Shown here piece after piece: positions 7,680-35,123 of a stretch of DNA of 35,123 nucleotides. How positions within the stretch are numbered: the first letter of the stretch is position 1; the number at the start of each line of letters is the position of its first letter. The notes under the pieces were generated by a model that had not been told where the DNA came from, did not search any database, and worked only from the letters and a program-made list of their open reading frames with translations. The DNA comes from Gemmatimonadota bacterium (GTDB lineage Bacteria; Gemmatimonadota; Gemmatimonadetes; Longimicrobiales; Gaopeijiaceae), in NCBI GenBank assembly GCA_028873825.1, contig JAPPNM010000026.1:1-35123 (forward strand). The letters are read 5' to 3'. Both the position numbers and the translations under genes were made by a program.

Positions 7680-9346
7680 TCGCCTGGATGGTGTACGCGG
7701 CGGCGGTCGGCGTGACGGTCTCGATCGGCGGCCTCGCGCTCGAACGACTGGCGGCGGCGGCAGGGCAACCGCGCAGGATCGGGTGGTTGGCGGCCCTGAC
7801 TCTCGCGGTACTGATTCCGCCGGCGGGGGGATGGCGCAAGCCGGCGCCGGCGCCGGATGCGGAGATCGTCGCCACCGAACCCGCGGCGGCCGGGGGAGTC
7901 GCGGTCGGTGAACTCTGGAGCGCGATTCCCGCCCTGACCGCTCCCCGGGGAATCGCAACGGGAAGGATCGCGGCCATGGCGTGGGGCGCGGGCTCCCTGG
8001 CGACGCTGGCCGTTCTGGGCGGCGTACTGGCGCTTGTCGCGCGGGGGCGCCGCCGCTGGGAGCGAAGGACGATGTGCGGCACCGAGGTCTACGTGTCGCG
8101 CGGTTTCGGCCCCGCCCTGGTCGGCATAGCCAGACCGGAGGTCGTACTCCCCGCGTGGGTGGTGCGGCTGGAGCCGCGTGCCCGCGAAGCGATCGTCCGG
8201 CACGAGCTGGAACACGCCCGGGCGAGGGACCACCTCGTGCTGCTCTGCGGCGGCTTGGCGGTGGCGGCCTTCCCGTGGAGCCCCGCGATCTGGTGGATGT
8301 ACCGGCGGCTCCGCGCCGCCGTGGAACTGGACTGCGACCAACGGGTCCTGGCGTCGGGGATCGGGGTCGCCGACTACGGCGACGTTCTCCTGAACGCGGG
8401 ATGCCGTTCCCGTGGCCGCTGGGGATTCGCTCCGGCCATGGGTCAACCCGAGAGTCTGCTCGAACGGAGGCTGAAGACGATGAGCGAGAAGCGAAGGAAA
8501 CCGAATGCGGGACATGCGGCGCTGCTCGCGGCGGTGGCGGTGGGGGCGGTCGTTGTGGCGTGCGATACCCCGGTACCGACCGAGGTGCGGGAGGCGTTCG
8601 AGGAGGTGACCGCGGATCGGCGCGTGGAGCGTACCGAAGCGGAAATGGAACGACGGAGCGTGCGGCTCCGGCTCTTGCGGGACTTTGCGGTCACGGGCCG
8701 CAGCCGGGACTCCGGCCCGATCGTATACCTGGACGGCGTCCGGGTCCCAGGGCCGCGGGAAACGTCCGACGGCGAGGATCCGCTGTCCCGGCTGGATCCC
8801 CGCGATATCGCCGTCGTCGAGGTGCTGAAGGGACCTGCGGCCAGGGAGCTGTACGGCGACGAGGCGGCGAGCGGGGTGATCCTGGTGCTAACGAAGGCGG
8901 TGGAGGACGCCCGGAAGAGACTGCAGGCGACGCTGGCCGAGTACGAAGCCGAGATCGGCAAGCTCGAAGCCGACTACCGGAGGTCGGAAGCCGACTACCA
9001 GAGGGCGTTGGGCGAGTACCGGCAGCGGCAGGTGACGACCGGACAGGCGCGGGCACAATCCCTGCGCGAGCCGAAGGCCACGGAACTCGTCGTGACGGCA
9101 GAGACGGCGGCTTGGACGAAGTGGCTCACCGAGAATGCGGCTTCCGGTACGCCCCCGGGTTGGAGTCCGGTCATCTACGTCGACGACGTACGCCTGGATG
9201 GCGGCGGATCCGGGGTGGACAGGCTGTCTCCCGCGCTGGTCGCCGATCGCATCGACCGCATCGAAGTCGTCAAGGGGGAGAGGGCCGGGGAGCTGTACGG
9301 CGACGAGGGGGAGCGCGGCGCGATCCGGATCTTCACGAAGAAGTAG
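7676..9346 (+). CDS. BlaR1-like M56 metallopeptidase with two C-terminal TonB-plug-like modules
   Basis: VRHELEHARARDH (HExxH-type); ELDCDQRVLASG; C-terminal repeats DPRDIAVVEVLKGPAARELYGDEAASGVILVLTK and IDRIEVVKGERAGELYGDEGERGAIRIFTKK; ATGA overlap with blaI. Confidence 0.88.
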   Translation: MIAWMVYAAAVGVTVSIGGLALERLAAAAGQPRRIGWLAALTLAVLIPPAGGWRKPAPAPDAEIVATEPAAAGGVAVGELWSAIPALTAPRGIATGRIAAMAWGAGSLATLAVLGGVLALVARGRRRWERRTMCGTEVYVSRGFGPALVGIARPEVVLPAWVVRLEPRAREAIVRHELEHARARDHLVLLCGGLAVAAFPWSPAIWWMYRRLRAAVELDCDQRVLASGIGVADYGDVLLNAGCRSRGRWGFAPAMGQPESLLERRLKTMSEKRRKPNAGHAALLAAVAVGAVVVACDTPVPTEVREAFEEVTADRRVERTEAEMERRSVRLRLLRDFAVTGRSRDSGPIVYLDGVRVPGPRETSDGEDPLSRLDPRDIAVVEVLKGPAARELYGDEAASGVILVLTKAVEDARKRLQATLAEYEAEIGKLEADYRRSEADYQRALGEYRQRQVTTGQARAQSLREPKATELVVTAETAAWTKWLTENAASGTPPGWSPVIYVDDVRLDGGGSGVDRLSPALVADRIDRIEVVKGERAGELYGDEGERGAIRIFTKK

Positions 9347-9366
9347 GGGACTCCGGGCGGCCGCGG

Positions 9367-11580
9367 TCAATCCACCGCGATGTTCGGCGCGCGCTCCCGC
9401 CTCGCCTTCGATCCTCCCAGGTATCCGTGGAGGAACTCTTTCGACATCTCCCGGTAGCGCAGACTCGTCTCCGTGTCGCCTTCGGCTTCGGCTAACGCTC
9501 CCAGCAGCGCCGTCAACCGGTAGTAGGAGTACGGGATGTGGCGGGTCGAGTAGTCCTGCCAGATCTCGCGCGCACGGAGCCCGCGGTAGCTGTAGACCTC
9601 GTCCACGAGCTGCCTCGACCGCGGATAGTCGAACCATTCGCCGCCCAGGCCCTCGTCCGTCCGCCGGTATCCGGCCGACGGCTCGCGGTCCAGGTCCCGC
9701 ATGTGGAGCCGCACCGCCAGGCCCTCCGAGACAGCCCACGCCGCAAGCCCCATCGTCCTCATCTCTCCGCTTCTCGACGCGAAGTAGACCGGCCGCTCGG
9801 GGGCGGAGGCCCGAATGATCGACAGAGCAATTCGGTGTCCGCTGCGCAGCTCCGTTCCCTTCGGGTACTCGACCAGCATGCCGCCGATTCGCAAGCGCAT
9901 CGTGTCGGGCAGCCGCCCGTCCCCCACCGCCGCAAGCTGCGCGTCCGTGAGATCGACGACGGGACCGGCCGGCGGATCCCGGTCCGCGTAGGGAAGCCCC
10001 TCGGCGGGAACGTACCGCCGCTGGCGCCCCGGTTCGGTCAGTTCGCGCAGCTGGCTCGCGTACCAGTCCGTGAACAGGTACTGGACCACAACCACTGTCA
10101 CGTCCCGGCGAATTCCCTCCACCTCCTGCAGGTACCAGAGCGGGAAGGTGTCGTTGTCGCCTTCGGTGAAGAGCACCCCGTAGGGCTCCACGCTGTTCAG
10201 GAGGCCGTACGCCCAGTCGCGGGCGGCGTAGTCCCCGGCGCGGTTCGCCCAGCCTAGGTTGAGGAAGAACGGGACCAGGGCGACCGCCAGCACGGGCGAT
10301 GCGTTGCGCGGGCCCCCCGCGCGCTCGCCGAGCCACGCCCAGCAGCGCGAGAGCCCGAGTCCGGACAGAACGCCCCAGAGGGCGAAGAAGAGCAGGAAGA
10401 AGTAGTCGCGCTCCCGGACTTCGTGGGAACGTTCGGCGGTGACCTCCGGGGCGAGCGAGTACCCCAGCCTGAAGTTGAGGTAGAAGACAAGCGCAACCGA
10501 CAGCGTGACGGCGAACGCCGCGACGTAGGCGCCGGTGTTGCGGTCTCCCCGCCAGACGGCGAAGAGGCCGGCCCCTCCAAGAGCGATGAAGAGCAGGGTG
10601 AAGGGCAGGCGCGCCGGGGAAGGGGGCTCGTCGGGATCCATCCCGCGCGACCACTGCCAGTCGAAGTACTGGAAGAAGTTCAGCAGCTGGTGTCCGAAGG
10701 GCGCCATGCGCTGCGTGACCGGGGGCTTTCGGTACTGCTCGCGCTTGAGCGCCGAGGCCAGGGCGGGACATCCGGCGGCCCCGCCCGTGTAGATGGCCAC
10801 CGCGGCCTCCACCGCCCCTTCGCAGCGCGGATCGCCCTCGTTGACGACGGGACGCTGGGCCGCGCGAATCGGCAGGAAGAAGTTGAAGGAGATGCCGGCG
10901 ACCACGGCCAGGGCGCAGCGCGAGAGGAAGCGCCGGTGGGCGAGCAGCTTCGGCCGGGTAAGAAGGAGAAAGAGGAGCGCCGCCCCGGCCGGAAGCACCG
11001 ACATGAGGTGGTTGGTCGCGCCCAGCGCCATCAGGTAGACGGCGGCCACGACCAGCCGCGCGCTGCGGGGGTCGTTGCGCCGGTCCCCCCAGCGCAACAT
11101 AAGCCAGCTGACCGCGGCCGCGATCAACAGCGAGACCGTGTACACCTTCTCGTTCGTGTTGCTCTGGCTCCAGACCGTGAAGGCGGTGGCAGAGACCAGT
11201 ACGGCCGCCGCCGCGCCGACCAGCGCCTCGCGCCCGCGTCCCCGCAGCTGGACGAGGGTGCGGTGCGCGACCAGGAAGAAGAAGAAGGACGCGCCCGCCG
11301 AGGTCGCGGCCGCCAGCAGGTTGATCCGCACGGCCGGCGGAAGCCCCAGCGGCGCCAGCAGAACGGACCACGCACGTCCCGTCGCCACGAAGAGCGGATT
11401 GCCCGGCGGGTGCGGTATCCCCAGCGTATGGGCGGTTGCGACGTACTCGCTGGTGTCCCACCAGGTCGGCGCCGGCGCCAGCGTGAGGACGTAGAGCAGA
11501 AAGGCGCCCGCGGCGGCGAACGCGGCGGCCCCGTACGGGGGACCCTGGCCACCGCCGAAGAACCGCGGCGTTGCTATCAT
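9367..11580 (-). CDS. DUF2723-family multi-spanning membrane protein
   Basis: LYVLTLAPAPTWWDTSEYVATAHTLGIPHPPGNPLFV..., SQSNTNEKVYTVS, RERDYFFLLFFALWG, FTEGDNDTFPLWYLQEVEGIRRDVTVV. Confidence 0.9.
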   Translation of the reverse strand: MIATPRFFGGGQGPPYGAAAFAAAGAFLLYVLTLAPAPTWWDTSEYVATAHTLGIPHPPGNPLFVATGRAWSVLLAPLGLPPAVRINLLAAATSAGASFFFFLVAHRTLVQLRGRGREALVGAAAAVLVSATAFTVWSQSNTNEKVYTVSLLIAAAVSWLMLRWGDRRNDPRSARLVVAAVYLMALGATNHLMSVLPAGAALLFLLLTRPKLLAHRRFLSRCALAVVAGISFNFFLPIRAAQRPVVNEGDPRCEGAVEAAVAIYTGGAAGCPALASALKREQYRKPPVTQRMAPFGHQLLNFFQYFDWQWSRGMDPDEPPSPARLPFTLLFIALGGAGLFAVWRGDRNTGAYVAAFAVTLSVALVFYLNFRLGYSLAPEVTAERSHEVRERDYFFLLFFALWGVLSGLGLSRCWAWLGERAGGPRNASPVLAVALVPFFLNLGWANRAGDYAARDWAYGLLNSVEPYGVLFTEGDNDTFPLWYLQEVEGIRRDVTVVVVQYLFTDWYASQLRELTEPGRQRRYVPAEGLPYADRDPPAGPVVDLTDAQLAAVGDGRLPDTMRLRIGGMLVEYPKGTELRSGHRIALSIIRASAPERPVYFASRSGEMRTMGLAAWAVSEGLAVRLHMRDLDREPSAGYRRTDEGLGGEWFDYPRSRQLVDEVYSYRGLRAREIWQDYSTRHIPYSYYRLTALLGALAEAEGDTETSLRYREMSKEFLHGYLGGSKARRERAPNIAVD

Positions 11581-18587: not shown

Positions 18588-19274
18588 ATGACCACGGACC
18601 GAACCCGATCCGCCGCGCGCCGGAAGCTGACCTTCGTCGCCGGTTTCGCCATCTACTTCGCCGCCCTGTGGCTCCTCTGGGACACGCCGGCCATCTACCC
18701 GCTCAAGATCTTCGTGGTAATGCTCCACGAGATCAGCCACGGGATCGCCTCCCTGGCCACGGGGGGCACGATCGACAGGATCGTCCTGGACCCCCAGCAG
18801 GGCGGCGCCTGCCACTGCGGCGGCGGCAACGCCTTCCTGACCCTGTCGGCGGGATACCTTGGCAGCCTGCTCTGGGGCGTGGCGCTGCTGGCGCTCGCGG
18901 GGGCGCGACGCATCTCGAACGCCACGCTGCTCACAGTGATCGGCGGCCTCGTCGTGCTCCTCACCGCGCTTTACGTGCGCAACGGATTCGGGCTCCTCTT
19001 CGGCCTGGGCTTCGGGTCCGCCCTGCTGATCGCCGGCCGCAAGCTCGGACCGCTCGCGAGCAAGGTAGTGCTCACGACTCTGGGCCTCACGAGCTGCCTC
19101 TACGCGATCCTGGACATCAAGAGCGACGTGCTCGACAGGCCGCACCTGCAAAGCGACGCGGCCATGCTCGCCGAGATCACGCCGCTGTCGACGACGGCGT
19201 GGGGGGCGGTGTGGATCGGGGTGGCGGTGATCGTCAGCGGGGTGGCGTTCGCGAGGGCCTACAGGGCGGCTTGA
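18588..19274 (+). CDS. M50B-like membrane metalloprotease family protein
   Basis: VVMLHEISHGIASLATGGTIDRIVLDPQQGG with HExxH in a multi-TM protein. Confidence 0.78.
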   Translation: MTTDRTRSAARRKLTFVAGFAIYFAALWLLWDTPAIYPLKIFVVMLHEISHGIASLATGGTIDRIVLDPQQGGACHCGGGNAFLTLSAGYLGSLLWGVALLALAGARRISNATLLTVIGGLVVLLTALYVRNGFGLLFGLGFGSALLIAGRKLGPLASKVVLTTLGLTSCLYAILDIKSDVLDRPHLQSDAAMLAEITPLSTTAWGAVWIGVAVIVSGVAFARAYRAA

Positions 19275-19307
19275 GGGGGCGGAGGGGTCGAATGTCAACC
19301 GGAACTG
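19232..19307 (+). repeat. 76-bp direct repeat copy 1 (3' end of the M50B-like gene plus flank)
   Basis: Identical by eye to 21603-21678: cgtcagcggggtggcgttcgcgagggcctacagggcggcttgagggggcggaggggtcgaatgtcaaccggaactg. Confidence 0.95.
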
Positions 19308-20208: not shown

Positions 20209-21405
20209 TCAACCGGGGCCTGCGGGAAGCGGCGGGGAAGCGTCAAGTCGCGCGAGCAGTGCGGGCAGGTCCTCAAGCGGGACGACCTCGCAGTCCCCCC
20301 GCGACCGCCGGTCCGTTCCTCCATGGACCACGGCCTTGGCGCTGACTCGCGGGAGCAGCTTGGCGACGCGGTCGAGCGCCGCGAGACGACTCCCGCGGAT
20401 CCTCGTCCCGGCCTTGGTCTCGATCGCACCGATGCCGTTGCCGTTCTCGTAGAGCAGGTCGCATTCCAGCCCGTCCGCGTCCCGGAAGAACGTGAGATTC
20501 GACCGGCGGCCCGTGTTGAAGCGGTGCTTGAGGGCCTCGACCACGACGGCCTTCTCGAAGAGCGGCCCCCGCGCCGGGTGCGCCGCCATCTGGCCGGCGT
20601 TCTCGATGCCGAGAAGGTGGCCGGCCAGTCCCACGTCGTGGAAGTAGAGCTTGGGCAACTTGACGAGGCGCTTGCGGATGTTGGCGAAGAAGGGCGGCAG
20701 CCGAAAAACGACGTAGCTCGCCTCGAGGACGGTGAGCCAGTGGCGCGCCGTAGCCTGCGGCACGCCGGCATCCGAGCCCAGGGAGCCGAGGTCGGCGAGT
20801 TGGCCCACCCTCGCCGCGCAGAGACGCACGAACCGGCGGAAGGCGGACAGATCGCGGATCTCGCCGATTCGCCGAACGTCGCGTTCGACGTAGGTCTCGA
20901 GGTAGTCCCCGAGCGCCTGCGTGGGATCCAGCCCGCGATCGTGAATCCGCGGATAGAATCCCGAATAGAGGATGTCGTCCAGCGCGTCGCTCGCTCCGGT
21001 GCGCCGCCGTTCGGCGAGGGAGAACGGCAGGAGCCGCAGCAGCGCCGTTCGGCCGGCGAGCGACTGGCCGATGGTCTCCGAGAGGCGAAACTGTTCGCTC
21101 CCGGTGAGGACGAAGAGGCCGGTTCCACCGTCTTCGTCGGCGAGGACCTTCAGGTAGGACACGAGATCCGGAACGCGCTGGATTTCGTCGAGGATCGCTC
21201 CCTGGGGGAACCGTGCGAGAAAGCCTCGCGGGTCGGACTTGGCGAACGCCCGGCGGTCGGGAGCGTCCAGGTCCACGTGGGGGAGCCCGGGGAAGGCGGC
21301 GCGGCAGAGCGTGGTCTTCCCCGACTGTCGCGGCCCGGTGACCGTGACGAAGGGGTATTGGCGGAACAGGCCGACCAGGACGGGCGTGATCTCGCGCTCG
21401 ATCAT
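20209..21405 (-). CDS. AAA ATPase with DUF4143 C-terminal nuclease-like domain
   Basis: FVTVTGPRQSGKTTLCRAAF, ARFPQGAILDEIQRVPDLVSYLK, FVLTGSEQFRL, DYLETYVERDVRRIGEIRDLSAFRRF, C-terminal ECDLLYENGNGIGAIETKAG. Confidence 0.93.
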   Translation of the reverse strand: MIEREITPVLVGLFRQYPFVTVTGPRQSGKTTLCRAAFPGLPHVDLDAPDRRAFAKSDPRGFLARFPQGAILDEIQRVPDLVSYLKVLADEDGGTGLFVLTGSEQFRLSETIGQSLAGRTALLRLLPFSLAERRRTGASDALDDILYSGFYPRIHDRGLDPTQALGDYLETYVERDVRRIGEIRDLSAFRRFVRLCAARVGQLADLGSLGSDAGVPQATARHWLTVLEASYVVFRLPPFFANIRKRLVKLPKLYFHDVGLAGHLLGIENAGQMAAHPARGPLFEKAVVVEALKHRFNTGRRSNLTFFRDADGLECDLLYENGNGIGAIETKAGTRIRGSRLAALDRVAKLLPRVSAKAVVHGGTDRRSRGDCEVVPLEDLPALLARLDASPPLPAGPG

Positions 21406-21559
21406 GCGGGGTAATGTAGGGGAGGGGGAGGCCGCGGGCAGGTCGGTGGCGGCGGCGCGCTTCGCGGTCGGGAAAGCGGTCTTCGCGCTCGCCGCGCCAC
21501 TCAGGTGGACAAGCCCCGGATCGGCACCGGGGAGCCGGCCGACGAACTGCATCACCGGT

Positions 21560-21678
21560 GCGGCAACCCCGGAACCGGAAGCGGGCCCCCGGCGCCACGG
21601 CACGTCAGCGGGGTGGCGTTCGCGAGGGCCTACAGGGCGGCTTGAGGGGGCGGAGGGGTCGAATGTCAACCGGAACTG
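21560..21678 (+). pseudogene. Deletion-scar copy of the M50B-like locus: two upstream blocks joined to the 3' end
   Basis: 21560-21586 resembles 18476-18502 (25/27), 21586-21605 resembles 18530-18549 (19/20), 21603-21678 equals 19232-19307 (76/76); same order and strand. Confidence 0.75.
21603..21678 (+). repeat. 76-bp direct repeat copy 2
   Basis: Identical by eye to 19232-19307. Confidence 0.95.
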
Positions 21679-21715
21679 TCGGGAGTAGTCAACCCGTCGC
21701 GGCGGCCTGGCCCGC

Positions 21716-21997
21716 TTACCGGCCGGAGGCTTCTTCAAGTTCCGCAAACATCTCGTCCGCGCTCGCGAATCGCGCCGCGCGCGTGCTGACCATCTCGTCA
21801 ACCTCGGCCATGGCTTCTCGCGTTTTCGCGTTGGGAACCTTGAGTTCAAGCGGGAACGCCTGATCGACGGCAATGCGATGGAACAGAAGCCGCACGGCCT
21901 CCGAAGCCGTCAAGCCCATCGCCGCGAGCGCCGCCATCGCTTTCCGCTTCATCTCGGTGTCCATCCGCACATGCACCATCGAACTCCGTGTCTTCAT
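21716..21997 (-). CDS. RelB/DinJ-like antitoxin, no adjacent toxin seen
   Basis: VHVRMDTEMKRKAMAALAAMGLTASEAVRLLFHRIAVDQAFPLELKVPNAKTREAMAEVD. Confidence 0.88.
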   Translation of the reverse strand: MKTRSSMVHVRMDTEMKRKAMAALAAMGLTASEAVRLLFHRIAVDQAFPLELKVPNAKTREAMAEVDEMVSTRAARFASADEMFAELEEASGR

Positions 21998-23017: not shown

Positions 23018-25622
23018 GTGACAACCAATCCCGCCTTGGCGACAGCTCCCGCGAACCTTGATCTGGGAGGTCTCTATCAGGCCGCATTCGGACGACCGAT
23101 GTCCCTCGGTTGGCAGCGCGCTCTCGTAGACGGCAGCTGGCCCGAGGTCCTGATCGCTCCGACGGGATCCGGCAAGACTGCCGGCGTGACGTTGGCATGG
23201 GCGCATCGTCGGCTCCACCGGCCCGAAGCGACTCCGCGCCGTCTCATCTGGTGCATGCCGATGCGCACGCTCGTGGACCAGGCGGCCGACGAGATTCGCG
23301 GGTGGATGGCGCGATGCGAGGCGAAGGGAGTCAACCCCGAGGGACTGATTCCGCGGCGTGAAGACGTTCATGTCGTCATGGGCGGCGCGGATTCGGGGGA
23401 TTGGCGCCTCAAACCCGAACGTCCTCTGATCCTCGTGGGAACTCAGGACATGATGCTCTCCAGGGCCTTGATGCGCGGCTACGCGTGCTCGAGGGCGGCG
23501 TGGCCCATGGAATTCGCGCTGCTGCACCGGGACGCGCAGTGGGTGTTCGACGAGGTGCAGCTGATGGGGGCGGGGCGCGCAACCTCCGCGCAGCTGGAGG
23601 CGTTTCGGCGGGGGGAGCACGAACGGGGCGTTTCGGGAAGCCGGTCGCGCGAGCCGGTTTGCAGAAGCCTCTGGATCTCGGCCACGCTCGAGCCGGAATG
23701 GCTCAAAACCGTGGATCACCCAGCTCCAACCAGGGTGCTGCGGGTAGAGCCAGCGACAGAGGATGACCCAAGGCTGCTCAAGCTCGCGCAGGCCGCGAAG
23801 CACCTGCATCGGGCTCCGGCCGCACCCGAGTCCTCCTCGGCCGCGCACGTGCGGGACTACCTCGCCCGGCTGGCCGAGTCCGTCGTTGACGCCCACCGGG
23901 CGGGTGGCATGACGCTCGTGATCGTCAACCAGGTCAAGCGCGCGCAGGAGCTGTACGCGAGCGCGGGCCGCATTCTCGCGCGTCGCGAGCGCAGGAATGC
24001 TGTTCCGAAGCTCGTGTTGCTGCATTCACGGTTCCGTGCCGCGGACCGTGAGCGTAAGATGGAATGGACTCGGGCCGACCCGGGCGAGCACGGGATCATC
24101 GTGATCTCAACTCAGGCGGTGGAGGCCGGCGTCGACATCTCCGCGGCGGTCATGGTCAGCGAGCTCGCTCCGTGGGCGTCAATGGTGCAGCGGTTCGGGC
24201 GGGCGAACAGGCGAGCCGAGGTCGATGGCGGTGCCGAGGTGCACTGGATCGACCTGCTGGGGCGCTTGGATGCCGACGACACGGCTGGAGAGAAGCAGGC
24301 CGTGGCCCTGTCGAAACCCTACGACGTCGACGATCTGCGCGAGGCCCGCGCGAAGCTCGTTGCACTTGGCGATGTGGCTCCGGTTCATCTGCCGCCACCC
24401 GGCGACATCGACCCTCCTTTGCGCGTGATCCGGCGCAAGGACCTCGACGAGCTCTTCGACACCGACTCGGACCTTACCGGGTTCGACGTCGACATCTCCG
24501 CGTACGTGCGCGACGCCGAGGACACGGATGTCCGGGTATTCTGGCGTGACCTGACGGAACCGGCCGACGATCCTCCGAAGCCCAGCGCAAACGAACTTTG
24601 CGCGGTGCCGATCGGGCAGGCGAAGAGGTGGATCCAAACGGCGACCGAGGCGTCCGGTACGGTCTTCTTCCGTCGCGATCCGCAGTGGCGCCGCCGCGAG
24701 GGAGCGGCGGAGTCCCACCCTCCGGGATGGCCTCCCCTTTCCCCGCGCGATCCGCCGTGGCCCGGACTCACGATCCTGGCCGACGTGAGGGCGGGAGGAT
24801 ACCGGGAGGATCTGGGCTTCACCGGCAACCGGAAGCACCGGCCGGCTCCAGTAGACCCCGACGCAGGGGCCGCGCGCGTGTCGGCGGCCAAGTCGGACGG
24901 CCACCGAACGCCGGAGGAGTCGGACGGATACGACGAGGACCCCGTGAGCCAAGCCGGACGGCCGGTGTCGCTCGCGGGTCATCGGCGGCACGTGGTTCGG
25001 GAGGTGCGCCATCTGGCCGGCGCGTTGCTGCTGCGCAACGAGACTCGCACCCTGCTCCTGCGCGCCGCGCGCTGGCACGATGTCGGAAAGGCGCACGAGG
25101 TCTTCCAGGACACGATGCGGCGCGGGCTGGACGGACAGGTGGTCCAGGAGAACATGCTGCTGGCCAAGACCGTGCTGAGAACACGCCACAAGCGCCGTTT
25201 CCGCCACGAGCTGGCGTCGGGACTGGCGTTTCTGGCTCACGAAGGCTGGCGGCGTGACGCGGATCTGACCGCGTACCTCATCGTCGCGCATCATGGGAAG
25301 GTGCGGATGAACCTGCGCGCGCTGCCGCGGGAGCAGGGACCGAAAGAGCCTGAGCGGGCCGGCGCCCGGTTCGCCAGGGGGGTTTGGGAAGGCGATCGCC
25401 TGCCCCCGCTCGACCTCGGAGGCGATGAACGATGGGAAGGCGGGCGCTTGACGCTGTCGGTCATGGAACTCGGCTGGGACGAGACGACGAGGGAAAGCTG
25501 GACCGAGCGGACACGGGTTTTGCTCGCGCGACTCGGACCGTTTCGGCTGGCTTGGCTGGAGACGCTGCTGCGCATCGCCGACCAGAGGGCGTCCGCGAAG
25601 GAGAGCGCGGGCCGATACGACG

Positions 25623-25630
<8 letters not shown>
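23018..25630 (+). CDS. cas3: Type I-G (I-U) Cas3: helicase with C-terminal HD domain
   Basis: LIAPTGSGKTAG, WVFDEVQLMG, STQAVEAGVDISAAVMVSELAPWASMVQRFGRANR, C-terminal RWHDVGKAHEVFQ HD motif; GTG start. Confidence 0.93.
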
Positions 25631-28971
<3,341 letters not shown>

Positions 28972-28977
28972 GCAACC

Positions 28978-30639
28978 GTGTTCGGGTTTGCCTTCCGGTT
29001 TCCGGCCGGACGATACCACGCCACGCCGTGGGGCCGAAACGTCAACGAGGCGGATGTCGCGTGGCCGCCGGAGCCGTGGCGGATCCTTCGGGCGTTGATT
29101 GCCTGCTACTGGCGCAAGGGAGACCGGGAGCGCTGGAGCGAGGACGACTTGGCGCGGCTCGTCGATGCCTTGGCCGCCGATCTTCCCGTGTTCCGTCTGC
29201 CGGAGGGTGCCATTCACGCCCATACGCGGCACTACATGCCGATCAGGAAAGGGAGGGCCGAGTCGAGAACTTTGGTCTTCGACGCCTTCCTGCATCTTCC
29301 AGACGGCGGGGAGGTCCAGGTCATCTGGCGGGGCGTGGCACTGGATGGCGATCTGCTGGAGCTTGCTGGCGATCTTGCGTCCGGAATGGGCTATCTCGGC
29401 CGGGCCGAGAGTTGGACCGAATGCCGCGTGATTCTCGAAGCCGATGGCGAGCCGAACTGCGGCCCGGCGGAGGGCGGGTTTGCGGGCGAGTCGTTCCGGC
29501 TGCTCCTGCCGCGGTCGGCCACGTCCTACCGGGCGGTGCGCGAGCGGCTAATGAGGGAGGAGGGAGACCGCATTCGGGCCGCTGCGAAGAAACCGATCAC
29601 CGAGCGCGCACTTCGGGGCCGAATCGCCAAGTCGTTTCGGGCAAAGTCCGTGGACACCCTCCCCGCCCGCTTGGTAGACGCCATCACGGTGGACACCGCC
29701 GACCTCCAGAATCGCAAGTGGAACCGCTCCCCCGCAGCCTACGAGGCTATCTACGCGCGGGATCCCGCGACCAATCCCGGTGTTGTGCCGCGTTCGCTCG
29801 GGAGGCGCAGAATCAGGAGGGCAAGCAGCGTGAAGAACCAACCGACCGTCGCGCGCTATCTCCTGGCGGGCCGACCGCGCCCTCGAATCGAAGATTCGGT
29901 GAAGATCGGCGAGGTGATGCGGGCGGCGGCGCTGTCGAAGTTCGGGTGGGCCACCGATGACGTCTCCGGGAAGCGGGTGCCACGCGCCCCGTGGCAGGTC
30001 ACCGGGCGCGACGAGCAGGGCCGCCCGCTTCGCGACCCGGCCCACTCTCACGCGTTCTGGCTCCCCGAGGATGCCGACGAAGACGGATGGATCGATCATG
30101 TGACGGTATTCGTCGCCGACGGCATGGACCACAGCGTTCGGTCAAGGCTCGACCGGATCACGCGGCTCTGGATCACCGCGAGAGCTCGTGACGAAGCTGG
30201 GGAAAAGCCGAAGATCGACGAGTGGCGCCTGGCCCTGGAGGGGTTCGGCAGCAGGGAGGACTTCGCCGGGGCTTCGCGGCTGCTGGCCACATCGCGGCGC
30301 TGGCGGAGCGTAACTCCGTTATTGGCGGCGGGCCACCTGAAGAAGGCCGGGTACGAGGGAGAGGTGCACCGGCTGCTTCGGCGGCGCGGGATTGCGACGG
30401 AGGGTGTGGCGGTCGAGGAGTTGCGTGACATCGATGTCGGTGGCACGGCACGGCGCGCGCTGAACTTCCACAGGTTCCGCTCGCGGGGGCGGGAGCGGCA
30501 GATCGACACGAGGGGGGCTTTGCTGGAGATCACGTTTCCAGAGGATGTTCGGGGACCGCTGGCTCTCGGGTACGCCAGCCATTTCGGGTTGGGAGCGTTC
30601 GGGGGTGTTGGGGACGCGAACACCACGGGAGGGCGTTGA
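28978..30639 (+). CDS. csb2: Csb2 (Cas5-Cas6-like, type I-G)
   Basis: GFAFRFPAGRYHATPWGRNVNEADVAWPPEPWRILRALIACYWRKG; HTRHYMPIRKGRAESRTLVFDAF; GTG start. Confidence 0.9.
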   Translation: MFGFAFRFPAGRYHATPWGRNVNEADVAWPPEPWRILRALIACYWRKGDRERWSEDDLARLVDALAADLPVFRLPEGAIHAHTRHYMPIRKGRAESRTLVFDAFLHLPDGGEVQVIWRGVALDGDLLELAGDLASGMGYLGRAESWTECRVILEADGEPNCGPAEGGFAGESFRLLLPRSATSYRAVRERLMREEGDRIRAAAKKPITERALRGRIAKSFRAKSVDTLPARLVDAITVDTADLQNRKWNRSPAAYEAIYARDPATNPGVVPRSLGRRRIRRASSVKNQPTVARYLLAGRPRPRIEDSVKIGEVMRAAALSKFGWATDDVSGKRVPRAPWQVTGRDEQGRPLRDPAHSHAFWLPEDADEDGWIDHVTVFVADGMDHSVRSRLDRITRLWITARARDEAGEKPKIDEWRLALEGFGSREDFAGASRLLATSRRWRSVTPLLAAGHLKKAGYEGEVHRLLRRRGIATEGVAVEELRDIDVGGTARRALNFHRFRSRGRERQIDTRGALLEITFPEDVRGPLALGYASHFGLGAFGGVGDANTTGGR

Positions 30640-30642
30640 CCG

Positions 30643-30828
30643 ATGTCACGGTGCATCGCGGAGTACGTAGCGGGTGACCTCTCCGGCATTCAGGACTACA
30701 TCCTCGGAGTTAGAACCGTCGGCAAGGCACAGGCCAAAAGACTGCGCGCGCGATCATTCCACGTTGAGATCTTCGAGTACGCGGCCTTGGCGACGGCCCG
30801 AGCCCGCCTGGGCATCACGGACGCGAGC
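30643..30828 (+). pseudogene. Truncated Cas10-like N-terminus (type III), coupled to csb2
   Basis: IAEYVAGDLSGIQDYILGVRTVGKAQAKRLRARSFHVEIFEYAALATARARLG resembles the Cas10/Csm1 N-terminal GDxSGIQxFI...A.A..LRARSF block; ORF then runs into unrelated sequence and stops at 31038. Confidence 0.7.
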
Positions 30829-30890
30829 ACATCCCGCTGCACATTGGGCCGGTCACCGGATTCCCCCGCCGGGTGGAAACCCGGCCAATT

Positions 30891-30905
30891 TGACCAATAT
30901 GGTCA
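30891..30905. promoter_or_regulatory. Perfect palindrome TGACCA-ATA-TGGTCA within the post-cas10 scar
   Basis: Direct reading of 30891-30905. Confidence 0.45.
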
Positions 30906-31062
30906 CATACTGACAATGGTGTTCCTGCGGCACCGGCGCGGATGGCGTGACGGACCCCAACACCCCCTGGTGCGAATGCCCACCCGGTCGCCCAGATTCG
31001 GATTCCGCCACTGGCCACCCACCGCGACAGGAGAATGATGAAGAGCCCAAGGGAACAGTTTC

Positions 31063-31287
31063 ATGAACACGAAATCGAAGGACAGCACGGATCAGGCCTC
31101 GCGAGATGGCGGAAGGGGCGCCTCGATCACGCCTTCGACCGCCGCACTCATGCGAAGGCTCGGCCCCTCGCCCGCCCCCCGGATGCTGACGCCATCCGAG
31201 ATCGCCTTGTTGCGAGCCGACAAGCGGGAGATGCCCCAGGTGGTCGACGAAGCTCTCGCCCGCAAGGACGAAGAATCAGAGAGTTGA
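31063..31287 (+). CDS. Small hypothetical protein (74 aa)
   Basis: MNTKSKDSTDQASRDGGRGASITPSTAALMRRLGPSPAPRMLTPSEIALLRADKREMPQVVDEALARKDEESES; co-directional between cas10 remnant and CARF gene. Confidence 0.4.
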   Translation: MNTKSKDSTDQASRDGGRGASITPSTAALMRRLGPSPAPRMLTPSEIALLRADKREMPQVVDEALARKDEESES

Positions 31288-31333
31288 GCTGCTTGAGAGA
31301 TGATTGGCTTCACTCACGATGCGGGAGCATAGC

Positions 31334-33223
31334 ATGACCCACGAAACGCCCGAACGGGAACACGTCCTCCTCACCGTGCTCGGGACCAATCCACGGAATG
31401 CGACCTACGAGCTGGGCGGCGTAACGCAGGATGCCCGCCTGGCACCCGTGGCGCTGCTGCGCCTTCTACCCGAAGTTCGCCGCCCCACGCGGGTACTCGC
31501 CCTCTGCACCGGGGAGGCGAGTCAGGAAAGCTGGCCAAGCCTCGAAGAGAACCTTCCCCAAGGCTGCGCGGCCGACCTCGTGGACCTTCCGGACGGCGAC
31601 TCGCCCGAGGATGTCGACACGTTCCTGGAGGTGGTCGCGGAGGCTGTCCCCGGCCGCGCCGGCCTGACCGTCGACGTGACCCACGGCTTCCGGCACTTCG
31701 CCTTCCTCACCTACGTCGGCGTTCTCTATCTGGCGGCCCTGCGCGACGTGACGATTCGCGGCGCATACTACGGCCTGTACCGGCGCGACCGGACAAGTCC
31801 CTTTCTCGATCTGGCCCCTTTGTTGGAACTGCCGCAATGGATCCACGCGGTCAAGGTGCTGTCCGAGACGGGCAGCACCCTGCCGATTGCGGAGGCCATC
31901 AAGGCGAGACGCGGGTCTTCGCGGCCGGAGAGTCAAGTGGTTCACAACCTGTATCGGGAACTGTCGCGCTTTTCCTCGGCCTATCTTTCCGGCCTGCCGC
32001 TGGAGCTCGGGGCGCAGACGCGGCTCATTCTCGATCAGCATCTCAAGCCGTTGCGGAAGAGGCTGGTGCAGGTGCACCGTGTCCCGCTCGCATCTCGGCT
32101 CGTGAAGGATCTCGAGCAGGCGATGACTGCCTACGATCTTCCCCCCGAATCGGCTTCCCCCAGGGGGGCCTGGAAGGGTCGCATGGGCCTTAGTGACAAC
32201 GAGCTGAGGCGACAGGCCAAGGTCGTTGACGACCTGCTGCGACACGGGAACCTCCCGGCGGCCCTGGGCCTGATGAGTGAGTGGACCGTTTCCTGGATGA
32301 CATGGCGGCGGGGGCGCATGGCCGACTGGCTGGACCATCACGGCGGCAGGCGCGAGGCGGCCAACGCTCTCAACGCCATGGCCGCCGCCGCTGACGACGC
32401 CGAGCTTCGAGCCAGCCTGCTGGACGAGCAGCCCGACCTCGGGCGGTTCTGGAAATCACTTCGCGAGCTGCGCAACGGATACGCCCACCACGGCATGAGG
32501 CGTCAGGACTTGGTCGCATCACCGGACTTGGACGCCCGTCTCGCCAAGGTGCACGAGTACTGGAATGTGCTTCGCGCCCGTCCGCAACTCACAGTCGCAC
32601 TTGACGAGGGATCAAACGCGCGCCTGCTGGTCAGCCCCATGGGACTGCCGCCAGGCGTGCTGTTCAGCGCGCTCCACGCGTGTCGCTCCGACGGCGGGTT
32701 CGGCGAGCCGACAGAGTGCATCGTCGTCTGTTCCGCCGAGACCGAGGGAGGCATCGCGGAGGCCCTCCGGGCCGCCAGATACGAGGGTGCCGCGACACCG
32801 CTGGTCCTCTCGGACCCGCACGGAGGCAGGACGGAGATCAAGCGCTTGCTGACCGGTGCGCGACGGCGGATCTTCGGAGCGAGGGAGATGCTCGTCAACG
32901 TTACGGGAGGAACGACGCTCATGGGACTTGCGGTGGAGGCGCTTGCGAACGAGGGCCGTCGGCTCGCCTGCCCCGTCCGCCGCTTCGGCCTCATCGTGGC
33001 CTTATTGTCGTGGGGGGCCGGCTCCCGCCCGGGATGTCACCTCCTCGTTGCGTCACGAATGATGTCGTGGTTGCAGTGGTTCAACATCACGAATTCGCCG
33101 CCGTCCTCTCGGCGACCAGGTGACCCGGTTCTTTCGGTCGACATATGCCTCCCACACCTCGTCGGCGGTTCCCCGTATCCGGTGGACCTTGAGCCCTGGG
33201 TGCCGGGGGTTACTCTCCAGTAG
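31334..33223 (+). CDS. CRISPR-associated DxTHG/TM1812-family CARF protein with HEPN-like centre and second CARF-like C-terminus; 3' end probably altered beyond about 32996
   Basis: VLLTVLGTNPRNATYELGG; LTVDVTHGFRHFAFL (DxTHG); LRELRNGYAHHGMRR (R-x4-H); REMLVNVTGGTTLMGLAVEALANEGRRLACPVRRFGLI. Confidence 0.82.
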   Translation: MTHETPEREHVLLTVLGTNPRNATYELGGVTQDARLAPVALLRLLPEVRRPTRVLALCTGEASQESWPSLEENLPQGCAADLVDLPDGDSPEDVDTFLEVVAEAVPGRAGLTVDVTHGFRHFAFLTYVGVLYLAALRDVTIRGAYYGLYRRDRTSPFLDLAPLLELPQWIHAVKVLSETGSTLPIAEAIKARRGSSRPESQVVHNLYRELSRFSSAYLSGLPLELGAQTRLILDQHLKPLRKRLVQVHRVPLASRLVKDLEQAMTAYDLPPESASPRGAWKGRMGLSDNELRRQAKVVDDLLRHGNLPAALGLMSEWTVSWMTWRRGRMADWLDHHGGRREAANALNAMAAAADDAELRASLLDEQPDLGRFWKSLRELRNGYAHHGMRRQDLVASPDLDARLAKVHEYWNVLRARPQLTVALDEGSNARLLVSPMGLPPGVLFSALHACRSDGGFGEPTECIVVCSAETEGGIAEALRAARYEGAATPLVLSDPHGGRTEIKRLLTGARRRIFGAREMLVNVTGGTTLMGLAVEALANEGRRLACPVRRFGLIVALLSWGAGSRPGCHLLVASRMMSWLQWFNITNSPPSSRRPGDPVLSVDICLPHLVGGSPYPVDLEPWVPGVTLQ

Positions 33224-33343
33224 ACGCAGGCACCTGAAGATTGCCTTCTTCAGCGAGGGAGACTTCTTGCGAAGTTGCTTCTTGAACGATGGAGCGATCG
33301 TAACCCGGGGCGCTTGACCTGACCTCACTCCTCCTGCAGCCAC
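33037..33343 (-). pseudogene. RelE/ParE-like toxin, apparently frameshifted near its C-terminus
   Basis: VTIAPSFKKQLRKKSPSLKKAIFRCLRLLESNPRHPGLKVHRIRGTADEVWEAYVDRKNRVTW; shifting one frame gives EDGGEFVMLNHCNHDIIRNATRR* ending at 33037. Confidence 0.65.
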
Positions 33344-33612
33344 CGGATGGCGTCCTCGAACGAGTCGAAACTCACGCCCTCCCCACGGCGAATCTCAGTC
33401 AGAGCTTTCTTTTCGGCACGCTGCCACGCGGCTGACCAGTAGTAGTCCTGCGACGGAATGCGGGCAACCCCGGTGGGGATGGAAGCTCGCCATCTGGGCA
33501 CCTCCATCGTTGACATCCGAAGGTTGGAACGCGGGGGCAAAAGGGCACTGAGGGTCATCTGCCCGACCACGGGGTTCTGGTAGCGTGTCGGGAGCGAGAG
33601 CGAGTGGGCCAT
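33325..33612 (-). CDS. Antitoxin-like protein partnering the RelE-like toxin; N-terminus atypical
   Basis: YYWSAAWQRAEKKALTEIRRGEGVSFDSFEDAIRWLQEE resembles the toxin-binding tail of AbrB-type antitoxins; overlaps the toxin ORF. Confidence 0.5.
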   Translation of the reverse strand: MAHSLSLPTRYQNPVVGQMTLSALLPPRSNLRMSTMEVPRWRASIPTGVARIPSQDYYWSAAWQRAEKKALTEIRRGEGVSFDSFEDAIRWLQEE

Positions 33613-33847
33613 CATGCCTCCTCCCCTCCTATCTCCTTCATGGCTTCGGTCAGCGACTCGACAAGCTGGCTCGCCGTCTTGACCGTTAGGCCCACGGTGA
33701 AGACTAGTGGGGCTCCTGTTCCACCCCCTCTCGGGTAATCTGGGGCGCGCCGGCCAGAAAGTGGACAACGGCATGGTCATCGGTTACACCGACCACCATG
33801 CCGGATGCGAGGAACGGAAGGAGGCGAAAGGAAGCAGGCTCAGGCAT
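33612..33847 (-). pseudogene. Small frameshifted ORF (MPEPASFRLLPFLASGMVVGVTDDHAVVHFLAGAP...EPH | VFTVGLTVKTASQLVESLTEAMKEIGGEEA), possibly DUF3467-like
   Basis: Two frames join across a 1-nt shift at about 33707; the second frame ends overlapping the antitoxin ATG. Confidence 0.4.
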
Positions 33848-34102
33848 GTCGTTTCCTGGTTTGGAGGGTGTCGGATGAACCGGCCCCCCGGCCAGCCGGT
33901 TACGGTTCATGGACTGTGAGGGCTGACGATGGGCTGAAATCGGGATGAAGCGCCGAACGGGATGGATAACGCCTCGCATCCCTACCGGGCAATCCCCTCT
34001 CCCCATGAGGGCGGCAACCGACGGTCCCGATGGCGAAGGCGAAGGGCTTGGGCGCGTGCTGGGATTGTGGCCCGCTCGCGCCGTGGTGCGCCATGCCGGG
34101 AT

Positions 34103-35005
34103 TCAGGTCGTCGCCAGCGTCCGCAGCGCTGTCCGCACGCTGGCCCCTGCGTTCGCGACGTCGAACGGCAGACAAGCGAGCCTCAAGCCGTCGAAGAACC
34201 GACAGGTGAATGGGCTGGTGAAGCCCGCGCTCCGGGGGTACGCGAGGGCCACCGTGCGACATCCGTACCTCTTGCCGTAGGCATAGAGCTGGTACACGTC
34301 GGAGGAGACGACGTCCCGGATGAGGTCCGGACCGCCCCGGCCGATGTGCTTCCACTTGGCGTCGAGGACAAACCGGACGGCGCCGGTCGCATCGCGGAGC
34401 GAGATGTCGGGCCTGATCGCGAAGAACGACCTGTCCCCCTTCAAGGCCATGTGCCGTCGAGGCCCCTGGGGGATCACCCGGAACTCGCTCTGGTGGCGCC
34501 GAAAGCTGTGGGTCAGGAAGTCCTCGAACACCTCCTCCATGGGGAAGAGCAGCGACCGGTTGACGTGCCTGCCGGACCAGGTCGCGAGCCCGCGGTTGAA
34601 GAGGAAGAGGCCGACCCACCGCATGACCGGGCCGTAGTGCGGCATGGAGCGGTCTACGCTGTGGCTCCGCCAGTCCGCGCGCTGGTCTCGCGCCGGCGGG
34701 ACAGCCGAGAACGCCGGTTTGAGATCCGTGAGCAGCCGCTTGTTGCCCTCGTTGCGCACGACGGGCTCGAGCCTCTCGAGCGCGGTGCGGATAAGCCGGT
34801 TGGCCGGGCGGTTGGGACTGAGCTCGTCGTGTTCGACGTGGAAGCGGGAGCGGTCGATCAGGTTCTCGCGCAGGTGGTCGCGAAAGACGATGCGCCCGCG
34901 CAGGAAGGGTAGGTTCTCCCGGACCGGCACGTAGCGTCGGCTGAGGCCGCCCGTCACGAGCACCCGGACGTTCTCCAGAAATGTCCGGACGAAGACTTCG
35001 AGCAT
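34103..35005 (-). CDS. Second McrC-like (DUF2357/McrC superfamily) protein, possibly partial at the 5' end
   Basis: PMEEVFEDFLTHSFRRH..., FFAIRPDISLRDATGAVRFVLDAKWKHIG nuclease-like core, SSDVYQLYAYGKRYGCRTVALAYP. Confidence 0.78.
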   Translation of the reverse strand: MLEVFVRTFLENVRVLVTGGLSRRYVPVRENLPFLRGRIVFRDHLRENLIDRSRFHVEHDELSPNRPANRLIRTALERLEPVVRNEGNKRLLTDLKPAFSAVPPARDQRADWRSHSVDRSMPHYGPVMRWVGLFLFNRGLATWSGRHVNRSLLFPMEEVFEDFLTHSFRRHQSEFRVIPQGPRRHMALKGDRSFFAIRPDISLRDATGAVRFVLDAKWKHIGRGGPDLIRDVVSSDVYQLYAYGKRYGCRTVALAYPRSAGFTSPFTCRFFDGLRLACLPFDVANAGASVRTALRTLATT

Positions 35006-35021
35006 GGGGAAGCGTGGGCGC

Positions 35022-35123
35022 CCCCCCCGGGGGGGGGGGGGGGGGGGTTGGGGGCGCGGGGGGGCCCCCGGGGGCCGCCCCCGCCCCCAGCACCACAAGC
35101 CGCTCGTGTTGGGGGGGGGGGGG
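35022..35123. other. Low-complexity poly-G/poly-C end sequence, probable sequencing/assembly artefact
   Basis: Long G and C homopolymers at the window edge. Confidence 0.8.

Follow-up and report, generated by a model that had tools for sequence, protein, structure and literature searches.

A cas10 stub behind a type I-G CRISPR operon as the likely remnant of a composite I-G/III-A system

The type I-G CRISPR operon of a Gemmatimonadota bacterium (contig JAPPNM010000026.1; the window is the whole stretch of DNA analysed, 35,123 nucleotides) runs directly into the first codons of a cas10 gene. The best explanation is that the locus is a decayed composite I-G/III-A system, in which cas10-csm2-csm3-csm4 were lost and the I-G genes and a csx1-like gene were kept; this reading is likely (probability roughly 0.77) and remains an inference, function included. 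In this view an HD-less, csm1-type cas10, of which the stub is the 5' end, would once have headed a reduced III-A module. That module (cas10-csm2-csm3-csm4-CARF effector) would have been inserted into the I-G operon, behind csb2 and ahead of cas4/1. A deletion or replacement would then have taken the rest of cas10 together with csm2-4, leaving the I-G genes, the CARF-HEPN gene, cas4/1, cas2 and the array in place. An earlier note, made without database searches, had proposed an ancestral I-G operon with its own signalling Cas10. That proposal is supported, in the form of a whole cas10-csm2-csm3-csm4-CARF module and not of cas10 alone; that the full module once stood at the window locus is only inferred, the nearest I-G relatives being without it and csm2-4 having left no remnants.

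csb2 ends with its stop codon at 30639; 4 nt on, at 30643, an ATG opens a frame that begins MSRCIAEYVAGDLSGIQDYILGVRTVGKAQAKRLRARSFHVEIFEYAALATARARLG and continues without stops for 131 aa (30643-31038), the sequence past the stub being unrelated. The stub matches TIGR02578 (Cas10/Csm1) over 53 residues at profile positions 232-282 of 753 (E 1.1e-9), and stays under the whole-protein cut-off of that family because only a fragment remains. PADLOC Cas10 models match it at E 7e-9 and weaker, and solved Csm1 chains at E 1.5e-4, around Csm1 residues 236-287. Taken together, the NCBIfam, PADLOC and solved-structure matches exclude chance; Pfam returned no significant match for the stub, and NCBIfam and PADLOC were needed. 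The homology falls at the start of Palm1, just behind the HD domain of an ordinary Csm1, and not at the HD N-terminus. It stops at about codon 51-58 of the 131-aa frame, and by a profile built from 12 relatives only Cas10 positions 4-45 of 531 are left; the GGDD Palm2 and the rest of Cas10 are missing. No csm2, csm3 or csm4 remnants were found in six frames of 30600-34200 with profiles built from relatives, a whole-genome search found no Cas10 besides the stub, and a plasmid search with the stub gave no matches.

Most of what the earlier note had read at this junction held: the coordinates of the stop and start codons, the Cas10 identity of the fragment, the loss of similarity after about 60 codons and the assignment of the four genes before it to type I-G. 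Its description of the fragment as a Cas10 N-terminus held in part, the Palm1 start being an N-terminus only in the HD-less kind of Cas10 found in relatives. It had named as refuting outcomes the lack of a Cas10 profile match, full homologues that proved to be an unrelated short protein, and the lack of any other I-G operon with cas10 in this position; none of these occurred.

Table 1. Features of the window and of related loci. Positions are those of the window unless a contig or locus is named; G, C and L numbers are our handles for genomes, contigs and loci.
Feature	Location	Strand	Evidence or layout
cas3 (Cas3g, type I-G helicase/nuclease)	23018..25630	+	TIGR02621, 690 bits vs cut-off 400
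csx17 (cas8g, I-G large subunit)	25623..28028	+	TIGR04113, 579 bits vs cut-off 150
csb1 (cas7g)	28003..28971	+	TIGR02570, 127 bits vs cut-off 38; PF09617
csb2 (I-G Cas5-Cas6 fusion)	28978..30639	+	TIGR02165, 155 bits vs cut-off 45
cas10 stub, first ~55 codons of HD-less Cas10 (Palm1 start)	30643..30825	+	TIGR02578 E 1.1e-9; HD-less profile 4-45 of 531
Unrelated DNA, inferred to replace the rest of cas10 and csm2-csm3-csm4	30826..31333	.	single copy in own genome; no csm profile matches
74-aa ORF	31063-31287		no family matches, no Pfam match
csx1-like CARF-HEPN-CARF effector, DxTHG family	31334..33223	+	PADLOC CARF_HEPN_CARF E 7e-125
cas4/1 fusion and cas2 of I-G	C27:38769-40985		beyond run of Ns
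csb2 C-terminal tail remnant	L090 (G534:C70:111500-131000) 9216-9410		between csb2 and cas10
G054 locus			cas3-csx17-csb1-csb2-cas10-csm2-csm3-csm4-CARF/HEPN, one strand; csb2/cas10 overlap ATGCTGA
G400 locus	single contig, 3.88 Mb		cas3-csx17-csb1-csb2-cas10-csm2-csm3-csm4-CARF/HEPN-cas4/1-cas2-array
G398 locus (Phycisphaerales)	L061, JADLBV010000018.1		cas3-csx17-csb1-csb2-cas4/1-cas10-csm2-csm3-csm4-CARF-cas2
G128 locus	one contig		csb2, one nucleotidyltransferase-like gene, cas10-csm2-csm3
G151 loci	separate contigs		module and I-G genes apart, each contig broken near expected junction
G744 locus			module without adjoining I-G genes; I-G elsewhere in genome
G735 and G477 loci			stop at contig edges
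G530 locus	L096 10910-11911	-	only C-terminal (Cas6-like) csb2 half directly before cas10; own I-G-type array
G899 locus	L104 9529-11486		composite operon; cas10 split over two frames

All four genes of the I-G operon, cas3g, csx17, csb1 and csb2, score above their NCBIfam cut-offs, and on the 48.8-kb scaffold to which the window belongs (C27) cas4/1, cas2 and the array follow beyond the Ns at the window's right end. The array has 46 repeat copies with the repeat end ATTGAAGC (TTGAAGC-type, I-G), and from sequence alone the I-G system of this genome looks complete. The genome is a draft of 183 contigs, 93% complete, and near 35.1 kb the window has Ns and sequence of low complexity. Its second I-G locus (C157) has the adaptation genes directly after csb2, and the other nearest I-G relatives of the window locus (G010 and G057) have nothing between csb2 and cas4/1; the window locus therefore has extra DNA exactly there. 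Two other features of the scaffold are recorded here. Identical 76-bp direct repeats (19232-19307 and 21603-21678, ~2.4 kb apart) flank an ATPase-like ORF (20209-21873), possibly as a recent duplication or an insertion scar. Between csx1 and cas4/1 lies an McrBC restriction system, with McrC encoded at 34103-35095 (-) and an AAA ATPase past the Ns (C27 beyond 35123) that is likely McrB.

Intact counterparts exist in other genomes. An HD-less Cas10 with csm2-csm3-csm4, usually a CARF gene, and neither csm5 nor cas6 occurs in 13 genomes of Gemmatimonadota and Planctomycetota, and in 8/13 the module shares one strand run with I-G genes. The full-length cas10 right after csb2 that the earlier note had suggested looking for is found in G054, G400 and G594, with five more genomes having it near; a short gap or one gene separates the two in G452, G534, G899 and G128. 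In G400 and G452 the order csb2-cas10...CARF-cas4/1-cas2-array is that of the window scaffold. G398 was found by a collection scan, and a profile search around it added G400, G594, G534 and G452, with G899 found later; the stub search and a csb2-family search within the same order converged on the same contigs. The family is rare, with 1/399 and 2/395 in two phylum-wide draws. Some loci depart from the common layout. G530 has a full I-G system elsewhere in the genome and a module that carries its own crRNA-cutting half, and the split cas10 of G899 may reflect faulty sequencing or else a further signalling half in decay. In G128 csb2 (735 aa; L038 4632-6839, -) has a second C-terminal part of csb2 type in addition to its own, and the nucleotidyltransferase-like gene between csb2 and cas10 lies at L038 3742-4269 (-).

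The module is recognizably Csm. Csm1, Csm2, Csm3 and Csm4 exceed NCBIfam cut-offs in the proteins tested (G054 and G398), and profiles find them in every locus, the csm4 of G128 being only a fragment at a contig end and the G735 locus being cut off. The earlier note had also proposed inspecting the GGDD and HD motifs: GGDD is present in all 11 of the unsplit, unbroken full-length HD-less Cas10s (11/11), and the HD motif is absent from every Cas10 of the group. Canonical Csm5 queries matched only Csm3 in the composite loci, and weakly, so csm5 is absent there, and no cas6 other than Csb2 was seen in their gene calls. Most modules encode a CARF1-HEPN protein with RNxSILAH, and G398 a CARF7-type one. 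Every array found beside or near a module has I-G repeats ending ATTGAAGC. Against canonical Csm1 the HD-less Cas10s form one clade (100/100), with the Gemmatimonadota members together. An AlphaFold model of an HD-less Cas10, built with 5 sequences, is of low confidence (pLDDT 57); its PDB matches are all Csm1, which gives weak support only.

Does the stub belong to this clade? It has 13 residues ahead of SGIQ, as against 7-8 in intact HD-less proteins (taken from the most likely start) and about 180-530 in canonical HD-bearing ones. The HD-less profile gives it 44.4 bits and the canonical profile 35.2. It also shares a QA pair and a 16-residue spacing with 12/12 HD-less sequences and with 0/10 canonical ones. 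In a 57-column tree it sides with the HD-less clade (support 84/88) on a long branch, and the bootstrap trees place it on the HD-less side in 83% of cases vs 6% on the canonical side. The placement rests on only ~41-55 surviving residues. Tree, signature, scores and position are good but not final evidence, and membership of the HD-less clade is likely.

The association of the module with type I-G extends to whole genomes: csb2 is above cut-off in 13/13 genomes with an HD-less Cas10 vs 2/31 controls (Fisher p = 2e-9). The controls, from a Planctomycetota class, had csb2 in 1/11 genomes with canonical Csm1 and in 1/20 without a strong Cas10 match, and are imperfectly matched, with 3/13 of the HD-less genomes belonging to Gemmatimonadota, where the order baseline is 22/159 with csb2. 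The two halves can also part company. G534 and G400 agree by 74% in Cas10 and 73% in Csm3 but by only 31% in Csb2, and in G534 a G400-type csb2 tail (...QPVAGPIALGHSSRFGMGSFVP) still stands before cas10, behind the present, different csb2; the I-G half has therefore been swapped under a retained signalling half. Such tail remnants precede cas10 in 2/9 loci checked. I-G and type III halves recombine as modules, and the G534 tail is direct evidence of it.

Between the stub and the effector gene the window holds unrelated DNA. The stretch 30811-31333 was considered as a repeated mobile element and rejected, being single copy in the window genome. As the earlier note had it, the start of cas10 survives beside a CARF-HEPN effector, the csx1-like gene at 31334-33223, which is above the TIGR02549 cut-off and reaches 65 bits with TIGR02221, under the cut-off of 76.25. 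Alignment with a homologue in G154 shows its HEPN motif RNGYAH to be intact. A suspected frameshift at its 3' end was not upheld, the G154 homologue stopping in the same region; ORFs at 33053-33780 have no Pfam matches. The CARF class differs, CARF2-type in the window vs CARF1- or CARF7-type in the intact modules. The signalling half is broken, and csx1 is therefore without a cognate Cas10 in its genome. The G154 homologue (39%; G154:C29, L109) itself has as neighbours a Cmr2-like Cas10, RAMP genes and an I-G-like cas4/1 (L109 3822-10570, -, and 11090-13039, +), and this may be another I-G/III neighbourhood, of a type III-B kind.

How might an intact composite locus work? Gene order, motifs, the absence of HD and csm5, the I-G repeats and the co-occurrence are shown; crRNA sharing, cyclic oligoadenylate (cOA) signalling, CARF-HEPN activation and the division of labour are inferred, with no expression, binding or activity data behind them. 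One I-G-type array would be transcribed and its crRNAs cut by Csb2, through its Cas6 domain. The I-G Cascade and Cas3 would attack DNA, and a Cas10-Csm2-Csm3-Csm4 complex loaded with the same crRNAs would sense viral RNA, whereupon the GGDD Palm2 would make cyclic oligoadenylate and switch on the CARF-HEPN RNase. The HD nuclease of Cas10 is proposed to be dispensable because Cas3 cuts DNA. Two of these steps are read from sequence alone: the signalling rests only on the GGDD and RNxSILAH motifs, and the loading of Csm with I-G crRNA only on the I-G-type repeats near the modules. A bolder reading, which could as well prove wrong as right, is that the Csm module without HD and csm5 serves I-G as an obligate accessory for signalling and needs it for crRNA processing by Csb2 and possibly for a subunit that replaces Csm5. 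If that were true, the cutting of DNA by Cas3 and the second-messenger signalling of Cas10 would both run from one operon and one spacer memory.

Several observations count against a composite origin of the window locus: the stub is short and on a long branch, the nearest I-G relatives have no module, csm2-4 left no remnants, csx1 is CARF2-type, and Ns separate it from cas4/1. The strongest rival, itself unlikely, is that the stub is left over from an unrelated, ordinary III-A or III-B locus that recombined downstream of csb2, with no composite ever present there. In its favour are the nearest I-G relatives without a module, the G154 csx1 homologue adjoining a III-B-like Cas10 (GPVQEFVAQARRTRDLW) and RAMP genes, and the score of the stub against canonical Csm1. 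However, the stub begins at Palm1 with its ATG 4 nt past csb2, like HD-less operon members, it carries the QA signature and spacing that no canonical sequence has, the trees favour the HD-less side, and its location is that of the composite operons in other genomes. It is very unlikely that the junction is an artefact of binning or of a metagenome assembler that fused part of a Cas10 locus onto an I-G contig. The draft state of the genome and the Ns and low complexity near 35.1 kb would allow it, but the junction is in-frame, tightly spaced to csb2 and inside a contig stretch rather than a gap, and the same junction type recurs in independent assemblies, one of them a single-contig genome. That the 131-aa ORF encodes a small protein with a function of its own, such as a truncated Palm1 domain regulating signalling, is all but excluded: its frame is open without stops, but no relative of this short form appears in about 1,900 genomes searched, the residues after ~58 match nothing found, and the segment is without a GGDD site.

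On the composite reading, a reduced type III signalling module has been built into the I-G operon in two phyla and has moved between I-G backbones. It has shed the HD nuclease, Cas6 and array, all of which I-G could provide, and Csm5 as well. The window would represent the reverse step, with the signalling half gone and the effector gene left behind. The intact loci offer a compact natural test of two questions: how one spacer memory is coupled both to cutting DNA and to abortive RNA signalling, and whether Csm5 and HD can be done without.

Loci that mix type I and type III are known; the recurrent I-G/Csm layout is, provisionally, undescribed in the open-access literature searched, subscription papers and preprints excluded. 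No I-G/III composite is described in the passages of PMC11229360 consulted, and term searches of the 2025 classification text (PMC12669027), figures and supplements excluded, found no mention of one. A csm3 beside I-G in M. innocens (PMC10333696) was rejected as a precedent, its authors calling it a likely false positive. The composite loci share with type III-A (Csm) systems cas10/csm1, csm2, csm3 and csm4 above curated cut-offs and an adjoining CARF effector, but their Cas10 starts at Palm1 without HD (a domain reported for 65% of type III-A systems; PMC11229360), they have no csm5, cas6 or separate array, and the module is embedded in a type I-G operon. With type I-G (GSU0053/csx17) they share cas3-csx17-csb1-csb2, the cas4/1 fusion, cas2 and repeats ending TTGAAGC, whereas canonical I-G has no cas10-csm module (PMC9638904), which here stands after csb2 or cas4/1 and before the end of the operon. 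In CCTyper annotation, loci that combine type III with a second CRISPR type form an accepted class of hybrids, although PMC11229360 retained them under their type III name alone. The chimeric III-B/Cas6f loci of Marinomonas, a case of crRNA co-option (PMC5576922), likewise place type III genes next to the Cas6 and array of a type I system and have a type III effector that uses type I crRNAs, but they pair III-B with I-F, the chimeric locus lacks a full type I effector, and there is no HD-less, csm5-less Csm module. Type I-D is also of mixed type I and III nature, but there Cas10d takes the place of Cas8 within one single complex (PMC9638904), whereas the composite loci encode both Csx17 (Cas8) and Cas10, implying two complexes.
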